64,000 nt of DNA from Fibrobacter sp. (lineage in GTDB: Bacteria > Fibrobacterota > Chitinivibrionia > Chitinivibrionales > Chitinispirillaceae): the NCBI GenBank assembly GCA_012728995.1, contig JAAYEB010000150.1:1-64000 (forward strand), given 5' to 3'. Shown here piece by piece: positions 43,273 to 47,921 of this stretch (position 1 is its first letter; the number at the start of each line of letters is the position of its first letter). A model generated the notes under the pieces. The model searched no databases, was not told the origin of the DNA, and saw nothing but the letters and a program-made list of their open reading frames with translations. The position numbers were made by a program, and so were the translations under genes.

Positions 43273-44028
43273 TTATTTGGGCCATCGCGGAAATTCCCTG
43301 AGACTTATTACTTTATCTTTTGATATAATTATATGATCAAGGAGAGGAATTTCAAGCAATTTTCCAACTGTGAATAATCGTTCAGTGATTAACCAGTCTG
43401 CTTCAGAAGGATTAAGTCCACCACCTGGATGGTTGTGGGCCAAAATAACAGAAGCTGCTCCGTAACGAAGTGCCCTTTCGATTATTGATCTTGGATATAC
43501 TGCACATTGATTAACTGTACCTTCTGCAATAATGTCTGTCTGCAGGACATGATTTGAATTGTCAAGAAAAAGTGTCGCTACATACTCATCTCGTCGCTGT
43601 CCGAAAAAGAATCGTAAATACTCTTCAACATCCTGTCTATGTGATATCGCTTCCTGTTTTTCAAAGCGTTCCCTTAAGCAATAGGCTATGATATCGCGAA
43701 TAAGAGGAAAGAGAACTGCAGATCGCAGCCCTATTCCCTCTATTGACATCAGTTCTTCAACAGGGGCATTAATTGTTGCACTAATGGTTTTATATCGATT
43801 CAACAGTTTATGAGCAATTGATTTCGTATCACGGCGGGGAATTGAATAGGTTAAGAAAAACTCCAGGATTTCATGCGGAAGCAATGAAGACAGACCGTTT
43901 TTAGTGTACCTGTGAAGCAAACGGGATCGATGTCCGGCTTTATTTTCCAATGCATTGGTCAGGCACACATTTTTTTCAACATTATTCGGTGACTTCTTTT
44001 TTGCTGGAAATAAATCTTTCTTTTTCAT
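43273..44028 (-). CDS. radC: RadC family JAB-domain protein
   Basis: 251 residues. N-terminal HhH-like region (LLPHEILEFFLTYSIPRRDT...IEGIGLRSAVLF) and a JAB metalloprotease-like domain with ILAHNHPGGGLNPSEAD (JAMM zinc motif) and EYVATLFLDNSNHVLQTDII. Historically linked to DNA repair; the true role is unsettled. Its first about 35 residues are a Lys/Asn-rich extension. Confidence 0.92.
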   Translation of the reverse strand: MKKKDLFPAKKKSPNNVEKNVCLTNALENKAGHRSRLLHRYTKNGLSSLLPHEILEFFLTYSIPRRDTKSIAHKLLNRYKTISATINAPVEELMSIEGIGLRSAVLFPLIRDIIAYCLRERFEKQEAISHRQDVEEYLRFFFGQRRDEYVATLFLDNSNHVLQTDIIAEGTVNQCAVYPRSIIERALRYGAASVILAHNHPGGGLNPSEADWLITERLFTVGKLLEIPLLDHIIISKDKVISLREFPRWPK

Positions 44029-44392: not shown

Positions 44393-45712
44393 TTACCATT
44401 CAAGTGATAATCCAGCGGCTGTTATTCCGGCTCCCACTGTACAAAAAATTATTTTATCTTTTTTTTGAAGACCTTTTTCGATATCGGATATCGCCAGAGG
44501 AATGCTGGCACTTGATGTGTTTCCGACCCTGTCCAGGTTAAGATAAAAACGGTCGAAAGCCACACCACTTCTTTGTGCAGCAGCTTTTAGTATTCTGGCG
44601 TTGGCCTGATGAGGGACAACCCAGCGCACATCTTCTACTTCCCAGCCGCTTTTAATTACAAGATTGCGTATCATTGTTGAGAAACTTTCTGTTGCGAACC
44701 GAAACAGGGCTCTCCCGTCCAGTCGCATCCAGGGGTCGGTTTCGCTGCTGTTTTCTGGAACTTCATAACCCGGAAAATCTCTTCTGGCCATGTGCAAACC
44801 TTTTGAATCAGCAGTAAGGATTTCACGAATAATTTTGTGTCCTTTTTTTTCTGAAGAAACTATAGTAGCACCAGCTCCATCACCAAACAGGAAATAGGTG
44901 TTTCTGTCTTTTTTATCAAGTACTCTGGATTGCATGTCAACAGCTGATACCAGAACATTATGTGCTGTTCCGGAAAGTATCATTCCTTTAGCCATTGAAA
45001 TACCATAAAGCCATCCGGAACATGCTGCGTTAATATCAAATGCAGGTGTACCTCTGATGCCAAGTTTTTTCTGAAGGATACAAGCCGTTGACGGCATTAC
45101 TACATCCGGAGTTGAAGTAGATACTATTATGGCATCAATGTTATTGGGCGACAGACCCGACTTTTCAATAGCTTCAACAGATGCAGCGTAAGCCATATCA
45201 GAAGGTTTCTCATTTTCCTGTGCCCACCGGCGCTCTTTAATACCGGTAACTCCGAAAATGTATTCCTCAGTAATGTCCGGATGTTCCTTTAGCAATTCCC
45301 TGTTATGAATAACCTGTTTTGGCAGATAAGATCCGATACCAAGAATGCTGATAATTCCAGATGGTTCAATTTTTTCTTCATTAACTTCTTTAAGTTTCAT
45401 TTGTGGAAAGTCCGATTTTTTCGAACCTGCTGAAGGTATTTCGTTTTTCAGAGACTCATCAGAAGTTTCTATTTCTATAACTGGAGACTCGATGGGAGCC
45501 GAATCCCCCTCTGGAAATAAAAGATTAATTACGGTTCCTTCACATGGAGCTTCGAAGTCAAAAGTGGATTTGGCACTTTCTATTTCTGCAAGATTCTGTC
45601 CCTTGGAGAAACTGTTTCCAGGTTTGACATGCCATTTAACTATGGTTGCTTCGGTTTCAGCAGCAGCTTGTGAAGGCAGATACAGTACCGTTTTAAATAA
45701 TTCTTTACTCAC
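44393..45712 (-). CDS. Lipoyl domain fused to beta-ketoacyl-ACP synthase III
   Basis: 439 residues from a GTG. Residues 1-80 are a lipoyl/biotinyl domain of E2 type (LPSQAAAETEATIVKWHVKPG, then AEIESAKSTFDFEAP with Lys48 as the likely lipoylation site). An acidic linker (about 85-120) leads to a complete KAS III/FabH: ISILGIGSYLPKQVI, catalytic Cys231 in NAACSGW, His368 in VPHQAN and Asn398 in GNTSSAS. FabH condenses an acyl-CoA starter with malonyl-ACP. Here the attached lipoyl arm and the E1 gene just upstream (8-bp overlap) suggest that the starter acyl group arrives on lipoamide. I know no standard family with this fusion. Confidence 0.9.
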   Translation of the reverse strand: MSKELFKTVLYLPSQAAAETEATIVKWHVKPGNSFSKGQNLAEIESAKSTFDFEAPCEGTVINLLFPEGDSAPIESPVIEIETSDESLKNEIPSAGSKKSDFPQMKLKEVNEEKIEPSGIISILGIGSYLPKQVIHNRELLKEHPDITEEYIFGVTGIKERRWAQENEKPSDMAYAASVEAIEKSGLSPNNIDAIIVSTSTPDVVMPSTACILQKKLGIRGTPAFDINAACSGWLYGISMAKGMILSGTAHNVLVSAVDMQSRVLDKKDRNTYFLFGDGAGATIVSSEKKGHKIIREILTADSKGLHMARRDFPGYEVPENSSETDPWMRLDGRALFRFATESFSTMIRNLVIKSGWEVEDVRWVVPHQANARILKAAAQRSGVAFDRFYLNLDRVGNTSSASIPLAISDIEKGLQKKDKIIFCTVGAGITAAGLSLEW

Positions 45713-47714
45713 ATTTCTCTCCGATCATCAATTCAATTTTCTGGCATATCCTGTCTTGACTTGGTATATAAAAACATTCCAGTTCTTTTGCAAATGGAAT
45801 CGGTGTGTCCGGTGCTGCAACTATTTGTGGGGCACATTTCAATTCGTGAAAACACTCTCTGCAGATCAGTGATATAAACCGGTCGCCAAGACCTGCTGTT
45901 TCTCCACTTTCCTGCACTATTAACAGCTTTCCGGTTTTTTTAACATCTTCAATGATGGGATCAATTTTCAGAGGACTTAAAATAAATGGATTCCATACCT
46001 GAGCGGAATAATTATGTTTATCAATTACAGATAAAACGGTTTCAACCATTGCTCCTGTAGCAATTATAGTAAGATCATTACCGTCAATGTACTTTCTGGG
46101 ACGAAATATTGAGTCGATGTCTCCATTGTAATCAATGTCTTCCTGTTTACCCCAGTACAGAAGTTTATGTTCAAACACAATACAGGGATTGGGATCATAA
46201 AAGCCACCTATCAGAGCTTCAAAAGTTTCTTGTGGCGTAACCGGATAAAGAAGCTTCAAACCTGGAAAACGTGACCATAAACCTTCAAATTCACCGGAAT
46301 GAAAAGCTCCCAATGTAATGCCCCCACCACAGGGTAATCTGAATAATAGTGGAGCTGCAGTATCTGATCTGAAAAACCATGTTGCGGCATTCAGACCAAG
46401 TTGCGTAACTGCTTCTGTGGCGAAATCTGCAAACTGAAATTCCATAATTGGAAACGCTCCGGTCTGAGATGCTCCAAGACAGAAACCTGTTGTAGCAGAT
46501 TCACATATTGGGGTATCAATAACCCGCTGGGGACCATATTTTTCAACTAAACCTTTGCAGGTTTTAAAAGCAGAACCATATACACCTATATCCTGACCAC
46601 ATAAAAATGCTTTTTCGTTGTATTTGAGAAGATAATCAAGTGCAGAATTTACTGCATGAAGATTGCGGACATTAGATGCTTTGAAAGGAGGCTTTTTGTC
46701 GCTTTTTATATCAGAATATACACTCCAAGTCTGTTTGCGGGGATCGGGAGAGGATATTTTGACAGATTCCTGAGTAATTTTTTCAACCTGATTACGAATA
46801 TCCTCTTCAAAAGAGAGTATTGAATCCTCTGAAAAACCACAGTCAATCAGACCGTTTCTGGCTTTTGAAACCGGATCATCCTTCAACCAGATTTCAAGTT
46901 TGTTACGATCAACATATTCTGCATTATCGTAAACCGCATGCCCTTCAAGACGCAATGTTTTACACTCTAAAATTCTGGGAAGGCTGTCATCTGACATTTT
47001 TTGAATCGAATCATAAACAGAGCTGTACACTTCCCATACATCTGTACCATCTATTGTGATACCTTCTATTCCATAACCTTTTGCACGATCTGAGAGTGTT
47101 TTACAGTTGTATTGCAGGTGAGTGGGAGTGGAAAATGCGTAATGATTGTTTTCTATAAGAAACAGTACAGGTATTTTTTGAACTGAAGCAAAATTTATGG
47201 ATTCATGAAAATCCCCGGTACTGCTTCCACCATCTCCAATAGTTGCCAAACCGAATACATCCTCTCCGTTGCGACGGGCTGCCCATACTCCACCTACAGC
47301 AGGCGCAAGCATATTTCCAAGATGACTTATCATTGGGAATCGACGCCTGTCAGTATCACCATGATGAACATTTCCTTCTCTGCCGTGGGTTGGACTTTTT
47401 TCATTGGCAATATACTGATTCATTAAAGAGAGAGGTGATGATGCAACAAGATGTGCACCAAAATCCCTGTGGAGCAAAGAAATTATATCGCGGCCATGCC
47501 TGAATGGCAGACTCATTCCAACTGTTGTCGCTTCATTGCCAATACTGATTATTACTGTACCTTTTACATAGCCTTTTCGAAAAAGCTCTTTAAATTTCTC
47601 TTCCATCTGACGTGAAAGGTACATATAATAATAGGCTACTGGATAAAACTGTTCCTTTCCCATTTTTTGAGGAAAACGGGGTATATTCGAAATCAGTTCT
47701 TCTATGTTGGGCAA
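45705..47714 (-). CDS. 2-oxoacid dehydrogenase E1, alpha and beta subunits fused
   Basis: 669 residues. The first half is E1-alpha: HREGN-type loop (THGREGNVHHGD), thiamine-diphosphate motif starting GDG at 160-162 (TIGDGGSSTGDFHES) and ending IENNHYAF. From about residue 340 it is E1-beta: AVNSALDYLLKYNEKAFLCG, GQDIGVYGSAFK, DTPICESATTGFCLGAS, MEFQFADFATEAVTQL. It resembles branched-chain or pyruvate E1. It decarboxylates a 2-oxoacid and reductively acylates a lipoyl domain, most likely that of the next gene. No in-frame ATG exists: TTG 47714 lies 26 nt after AGGAGG, whereas ATT 47735 has the ideal 5-nt spacing. No E2 or E3 gene is adjacent. Confidence 0.92.
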   Translation of the reverse strand: MPNIEELISNIPRFPQKMGKEQFYPVAYYYMYLSRQMEEKFKELFRKGYVKGTVIISIGNEATTVGMSLPFRHGRDIISLLHRDFGAHLVASSPLSLMNQYIANEKSPTHGREGNVHHGDTDRRRFPMISHLGNMLAPAVGGVWAARRNGEDVFGLATIGDGGSSTGDFHESINFASVQKIPVLFLIENNHYAFSTPTHLQYNCKTLSDRAKGYGIEGITIDGTDVWEVYSSVYDSIQKMSDDSLPRILECKTLRLEGHAVYDNAEYVDRNKLEIWLKDDPVSKARNGLIDCGFSEDSILSFEEDIRNQVEKITQESVKISSPDPRKQTWSVYSDIKSDKKPPFKASNVRNLHAVNSALDYLLKYNEKAFLCGQDIGVYGSAFKTCKGLVEKYGPQRVIDTPICESATTGFCLGASQTGAFPIMEFQFADFATEAVTQLGLNAATWFFRSDTAAPLLFRLPCGGGITLGAFHSGEFEGLWSRFPGLKLLYPVTPQETFEALIGGFYDPNPCIVFEHKLLYWGKQEDIDYNGDIDSIFRPRKYIDGNDLTIIATGAMVETVLSVIDKHNYSAQVWNPFILSPLKIDPIIEDVKKTGKLLIVQESGETAGLGDRFISLICRECFHELKCAPQIVAAPDTPIPFAKELECFYIPSQDRICQKIELMIGEKCE

Positions 47715-47921
47715 AATTGTCGAAGTTTTTATAATAAATACCTCCTCTGTGTATTACTACACAGGTATGTCGAATTGGATCAGATGTTTAAAATAAGTGT
47801 TTTATGGAAAAAAGGCCAACAGATTAATACAAATATTGGCAAAACAGTGAATTTAAATAATGATTTGTAAATGATAAATACACACTGGATATATGTCTAA
47901 CCAGGTACAAAATGGAGAAAC

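Follow-up and report, generated by a model that had tools for sequence, protein, structure and literature searches.

In 2-oxoacid dehydrogenase complexes, the acyl group is passed to coenzyme A (CoA) through the core of the E2 acyltransferase, and β-ketoacyl-acyl carrier protein (ACP) synthase III (KAS III, or FabH) starts fatty acids from acyl-CoA. We analyzed a stretch of 64,000 nucleotides from Fibrobacter sp. (GenBank assembly GCA_012728995.1, contig JAAYEB010000150.1, positions 1 to 64,000; hereafter, the window), where two overlapping genes code for a fused α-β 2-oxoacid dehydrogenase E1 and for a protein that joins a lipoyl domain to a KAS III. The pair is probably an E2-less 2-oxoacid dehydrogenase feeding a ketosynthase: the acyl group would go from E1 to the lipoyl arm and then to the KAS III cysteine, priming branched-chain fatty acids without an E2 or acyl-CoA. 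A sequence-only reading of the window had suggested a direct transfer of this kind, and its interpretation is supported, as far as genome comparison goes, by all the genomic tests available. Literature searches, which covered open-licence papers, found no published description of the lipoyl-KAS III architecture.

Domain Architecture of the Two Proteins

The two genes, and the parts of the fusion protein on which the argument turns, are as follows.

45705..47714, minus strand: fused α-β 2-oxoacid dehydrogenase E1, 669 amino acids, dependent on thiamine diphosphate (ThDP) (Pfam domains, invariant motifs, AlphaFold)
44393..45712, minus strand: lipoyl-KAS III fusion protein, 439 amino acids (Pfam, NCBIfam, alignment, AlphaFold)
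45470..45679, minus strand: lipoyl domain, residues 12–81 (PF00364, 5.1e-12; aligns with lipoyl domains of pyruvate dehydrogenase [PDH] E2 in PDB)
45569..45571, minus strand: Lys48, predicted lipoylation site in an ESAKS motif (invariant in 27/27 homologues)
45359..45460, minus strand: flexible linker, residues 85–118, variable and without a peripheral-subunit-binding domain (predicted local distance difference test [pLDDT], alignment, Pfam)
44396..45352, minus strand: KAS III (FabH-like) domain, residues 121–439 (NF006829 and TIGR00747 over their cut-offs; FabH matches in PDB)
45248..45262, minus strand: Tyr151 and Val155, at the positions of the CoA-contact residues Trp32 and Arg36 of Escherichia coli FabH (alignment)
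45020..45022, minus strand: Cys231, nucleophile (invariant in the fusions and in FabH)
44609..44611, minus strand: His368 (invariant)
44519..44521, minus strand: Asn398 (invariant)

Domain searches of both proteins recovered the E1, lipoyl, and KAS III domains that the sequence-only reading had assigned. The fused E1 is complete, with three Pfam E1 domains on one chain (E1_dh 31–325, Transket_pyr 353–520, and Transketolase_C 544–656). Its ThDP motif (GDG at 160–162 and NN at 189–190), His259, His472, and E405 are invariant in 27 homologues, and its AlphaFold model is confident (mean pLDDT 82.7). The fusion protein matches Biotin_lipoyl (12–81), ACP_syn_III (225–302), and ACP_syn_III_C (354–439) in Pfam, and two NCBIfam FabH models exceed their cut-offs (NF006829, 326.6 versus 249 bits; TIGR00747, 302.6 versus 292.1 bits). 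The description of this protein as an N-terminal lipoyl domain with Lys48 followed by a complete KAS III is borne out, as Lys48 and the three catalytic residues Cys231, His368, and Asn398 are all invariant in 27 fusions. Neither the E2 catalytic core (PF00198) nor the peripheral-subunit-binding domain gave a Pfam match in the fusion, and the KAS III takes the place of the E2 acyltransferase, again as had been claimed. The AlphaFold models, built from the sequences of the window and of the fetched loci alone, give a β-strand lipoyl-like domain, a linker (91–118) where pLDDT is for the most part under 50, and a KAS III that superposes on FabH crystal structures with TM-scores of 0.85–0.89.

Across the 27 fusions, Lys48 stands in the motif E-S/T-A-K. 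Attachment of biotin instead of a lipoyl group was rejected, given that the motif is ESAKS and not AMKM and that the domain matches E2 lipoyl domains. Another invariant residue of the lipoyl domain (27/27 fusions) is Cys57, in the sequence APC (45542–45544).

Both open reading frames lie on the minus strand where the earlier reading had placed them, and they overlap by 8 nucleotides. For E1, position and strand stand, but the listed TTG start is doubtful because an AGGAGG box (47746–47741) lies about 26 nucleotides upstream of it. An in-frame ATT/ATA near 47735–47730 is better placed relative to AGGAGG, so translation may begin at a rare codon instead. The correction is minor.

Conservation and Coupling of the Pair

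The relatives found in public genomes are metagenome-assembled genomes of Fibrobacterota named Chitinispirillales, Chitinispirillaceae, or Fibrobacter sp. Within the phylum, the full fusion is present in 26 of the 168 genomes searched, with 59–73% identity, and all of these belong to the window's own order; a 27th carrier of the order, G036, has a fusion cut by the contig end. Among the order's 40 genomes, 28 encode the fused E1. Wherever the contig is unbroken, E1 is directly upstream of the fusion, the reading frames being −11 to +2 nucleotides apart (26 loci). Contig ends separate the two genes in G012, G015, and G039, and E1 ends at the contig edge in G032. Architecture and linkage to E1 are thus conserved in other genomes, which was one of the checks proposed from the sequence, and chance juxtaposition was rejected, as the pair is kept in 27 genomes of the order and is also present in another phylum.

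This other phylum is represented by a single genome, G311 (L133, C229:12001-31000), the sole carrier among the 64 genomes of its phylum searched, where the same pair (57% identity) lies amid unrelated genes. In the KAS III tree, all fusions form one strongly supported clade on a long branch from ordinary FabH, and the G311 protein falls inside it. This placement suggests that the two-gene unit moved laterally as a whole. Among the plasmid records listed, there was no fusion of comparable identity. An evolutionary intermediate outside the clade was sought among the nearest KAS III proteins lacking a lipoyl domain (G357 and G335; 41–42%) and rejected, these being ordinary FabH in plsX-fabH-fabD clusters.

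Other bacteria also have fused α-β E1s, at 35–36% identity, namely G227, G241, G370, and G382 (loci L201, L203, L205, and L206). No KAS III or lipoyl gene lies within 1.5 kb of them, and the wider neighborhoods of two of the four contain nothing related.

The genes around the pair code for RadC, a TonB receptor, and unrelated proteins, and no biosynthetic cluster surrounds it. The RadC-like gene (43273–44028, minus strand) is immediately downstream of the pair and is a neighbor in 10 of the 12 loci compared, though not in G311; this is probably lineage synteny rather than a functional link. Elsewhere in the window's genome (L168, G000:C446), a ketosynthase-type open frame of 2643 residues precedes a phosphopantetheinyl-transferase-like gene and a further KAS III; judged by eye, these form a polyketide or polyunsaturated-fatty-acid-like cluster.

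E2, E3, and Lipoylation Genes in Carrier Genomes

The E2 was searched for through its PF00198 core in the 40 genomes of the order. Ten fusion carriers have no PF00198 anywhere (G005, G006, G009, G010, G011, G012, G013, G014, G018, and G030), and seven of them are at least 90% complete (G005, G006, G009, G013, G014, G018, and G030). In these seven, the fused E1 is the sole E1, save for one very weak transketolase-like match in G006. All seven have an E3 (dihydrolipoyl dehydrogenase) over the curated cut-off, and LipA and GcvH are present as well, with the exception of G013, where LipA is a fragment in a 39-residue open frame. The window's genome has one E2, inside a PDH operon with the order E1α-E1β-E2-E3. 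A nearby or dedicated E2 using the fused E1, which the earlier reading had named among the observations that would overturn it, is rejected because the sole E2 of the window's genome sits in this PDH operon and the other carriers mentioned have none. The E2-less genomes also contain up to four 2-oxoacid:ferredoxin oxidoreductases of the POR type.

Active Site and CoA Contacts of the KAS III

E. coli FabH binds CoA through four residues: Thr28 contacts the adenine, Trp32 and Arg151 sandwich it, and Arg36 contacts the pantetheine (PMC4606726). Among the 26 fusions of the order, Trp32 is replaced by Tyr and Arg36 by Val in all 26, and Thr28 by Ile or Val in 25; the G311 fusion likewise has Tyr and Val at the positions of Trp32 and Arg36. 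The position of Arg151 has Arg in 12, Lys in 12, and Met in two, the window's protein having Arg (Arg270). By comparison, in 30 FabH rows of the same order, one or two of which are incomplete or atypical, Thr28 is kept in 29, Trp32 in 28, Arg36 in all 29 with letters at that position, and Arg151 in all 30. Comparison with the solved Vibrio cholerae FabH gives the same W-to-Y and R-to-V differences. Because the loss of the CoA contacts is a single evolutionary event, these counts reflect its long maintenance and not independent replication.

The residues that serve malonyl-ACP are kept in the fusions. These are the ACP-docking Arg249 (R373, invariant), Asn247 of the pantetheine tunnel (N371, invariant), and Phe213. 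The acyl pocket is changed at four positions in the fusions only, with Gln261 for L142, Ala309 for L189, Met206 for F87, and Val426 for F304.

The Probable Substrate of E1 and the Lipids of One Carrier

Compared with solved structures, the α half of the fused E1 is closest to the Thermus thermophilus 2-oxoacid and human branched-chain E1α (131 and 127 bits), with weaker matches to PDH E1α (88 and 74 bits). The branched-chain E1α of Pseudomonas putida reaches only 72.6 bits, and the branched-chain likeness is therefore suggestive rather than decisive. The top NCBIfam models for E1 are of PDH types, all below cut-off, and no curated model is over its cut-off. The matches from a structure search with the E1 model were chiefly transketolase and SucA, with identities near 16%, which is no help on specificity.

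One E2-less carrier with the pair, G005, was identified as Chitinispirillum alkaliphilum ACht6-1. The dominant membrane fatty acids of this species are aiC15:0 and C16:0, with C14:0 and iC16:0 in addition; the branched dominants are absent in Chitinivibrio alkaliphilus (16:0, 16:1) and Fibrobacter succinogenes (13:0, 13:1, 15:0) (PMC4814513). The cells were fed chitin in a mineral medium whose yeast extract was limited to 10 mg/l, and the branched chains were therefore probably made de novo. The link to branched membrane lipids comes from this one carrier. Its genome further encodes an ordinary FabH as well as several 2-oxoacid:ferredoxin oxidoreductases, among which one matches PorA/VorB models below their cut-offs.

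Proposed Route and Alternative Explanations

The route would begin with the fused E1 decarboxylating a 2-oxoacid, most likely branched-chain, on ThDP and reductively acylating the lipoyl arm on Lys48 of its partner. The lipoyl domain would then swing on its flexible linker and load Cys231 of the KAS III with the acyl group, with neither E2 nor CoA taking part. Condensation with malonyl-ACP by the KAS III would yield a branched 3-oxoacyl-ACP, the start of anteiso and iso fatty acids. A general E3, shared with the glycine cleavage system, would reoxidize the arm. If so, the end point of a 2-oxoacid dehydrogenase would be fatty-acid synthesis instead of acyl-CoA, with a ketosynthase in exchange for its E2 core. 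Lipoamide would take part in a reaction new to it, and fatty acids would be started free of CoA. This would account for the branched membranes of these anaerobes lacking E2, and it might allow cheap branched lipids in engineered hosts. CoA-free transfer, if shown in vitro, would deserve the name of a new kind of reaction.

Several points weigh against this route, and other explanations compete with it. The same path from E1 through the lipoyl arm to the KAS III might carry another acyl group to another product: an acetyl primer from pyruvate, an odd-chain primer from 2-oxobutyrate, or a secondary metabolite instead of membrane fatty acids. The PDH-type models that lead the NCBIfam matches of E1, albeit below cut-off, are in line with this, as is the uniquely changed pocket, where the invariant Gln261 would be unexpected if the acyl group were purely aliphatic. 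Still, C. alkaliphilum has anteiso and iso fatty acids and no Bkd (branched-chain) E2, the α half of E1 is nearer to branched-chain E1, no biosynthetic cluster is found around the pair, and the genomes already have acetyl-CoA and an ordinary FabH at hand, all of which makes a different acyl group or product rather unlikely. The main rival to the proposed route is that the POR-type enzymes, including one in C. alkaliphilum, could make branched acyl-CoA that an ordinary FabH uses, with the pair doing something else. Up to four such enzymes, one of them PorA/VorB-like (below cut-offs) in C. alkaliphilum, and the presence of ordinary FabH speak for it. We consider it unlikely, as it leaves unexplained the strict coupling, in E2-less genomes, of a branched-chain-like E1 to a lipoyl-KAS III that has a full triad and has lost its CoA contacts.

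The remaining alternatives keep a place for CoA or for an E2. KAS III enzymes are able to transacylate to CoA, so the fusion might work through CoA, either moving the acyl group from lipoamide to CoA as an E2 does or acting as an ordinary FabH that uses acyl-CoA and has an incidental lipoyl domain. Judging by the alignment, CoA binding seems weakened rather than excluded, because Tyr151 is still aromatic and could stack against the adenine ring, and about half of the fusions, the window's among them (Arg270), keep Arg151; Arg36 and Arg151 may, moreover, also contact the phosphopantetheine of malonyl-ACP. Such a role is nonetheless improbable in view of the replacement of the Thr28, Trp32, and Arg36 equivalents across the clade, the invariance of Lys48 and the lipoyl motif, and the constant coupling to E1. 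The presence of one E2 in the window's genome could also mean that a separate E2 serves the fused E1 in trans, with the lipoyl-KAS III as a side partner. That E2 belongs to the PDH operon, however, and the ten carriers lacking any E2 largely refute this idea, which we hold to be very improbable.

Comparison with Known Systems

The Bkd complex and FabH, which together prime branched-chain fatty acids in Bacillus, Staphylococcus, and Streptomyces, resemble the pair in the use of a branched 2-oxoacid, an E1, a lipoyl arm, a KAS III, and malonyl-ACP, and in the presumed iso and anteiso products. The pair differs in having no E2 acyltransferase and, presumably, no acyl-CoA step, in having the lipoyl domain as part of the KAS III, and in having the α and β parts of E1 on one chain. 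The pair would act much as the Bkd-FabH route does, yet it falls outside that route, since two defining features, E2 and the CoA contacts, were looked for and found to be missing or replaced. The fusion protein is not an E2 either. Like the E2 dihydrolipoyl acyltransferases of the pyruvate, branched-chain 2-oxoacid, and 2-oxoglutarate dehydrogenases, it has an N-terminal lipoyl domain on a flexible linker, predicted to be acylated by E1, whereas the PF00198 core and the peripheral-subunit-binding domain are absent and a KAS III is in the position of the core. With FabH it shares the fold, the Cys-His-Asn triad, the ACP-docking Arg249, and NCBIfam FabH models over cut-off, and it differs in the replaced equivalents of Thr28, Trp32, and Arg36, the remodeled acyl pocket, and the attached lipoyl domain.

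More distant parallels exist. The actinobacterial OdhA/KGD, with E1 and E2-like domains on one chain, is also a rearranged 2-oxoacid dehydrogenase, but it retains an acyltransferase domain and does succinyl transfer itself (PMC10415282). The lipoate-binding proteins LbpA are likewise lipoyl proteins outside the classical complexes, but they serve Hdr-like sulfur oxidation and not acyl transfer (PMC6067878). The E1 and KAS III of paulomycin biosynthesis, alike by keyword, were set aside as unrelated, the PDH-like enzyme there adding a two-carbon branch to a sugar. The fusion is probably a lipoamide-dependent ketosynthase, which would take its primer straight from a lipoyl arm charged by E1 and form the carbon–carbon bond with malonyl-ACP, priming the chain with neither E2 nor CoA.

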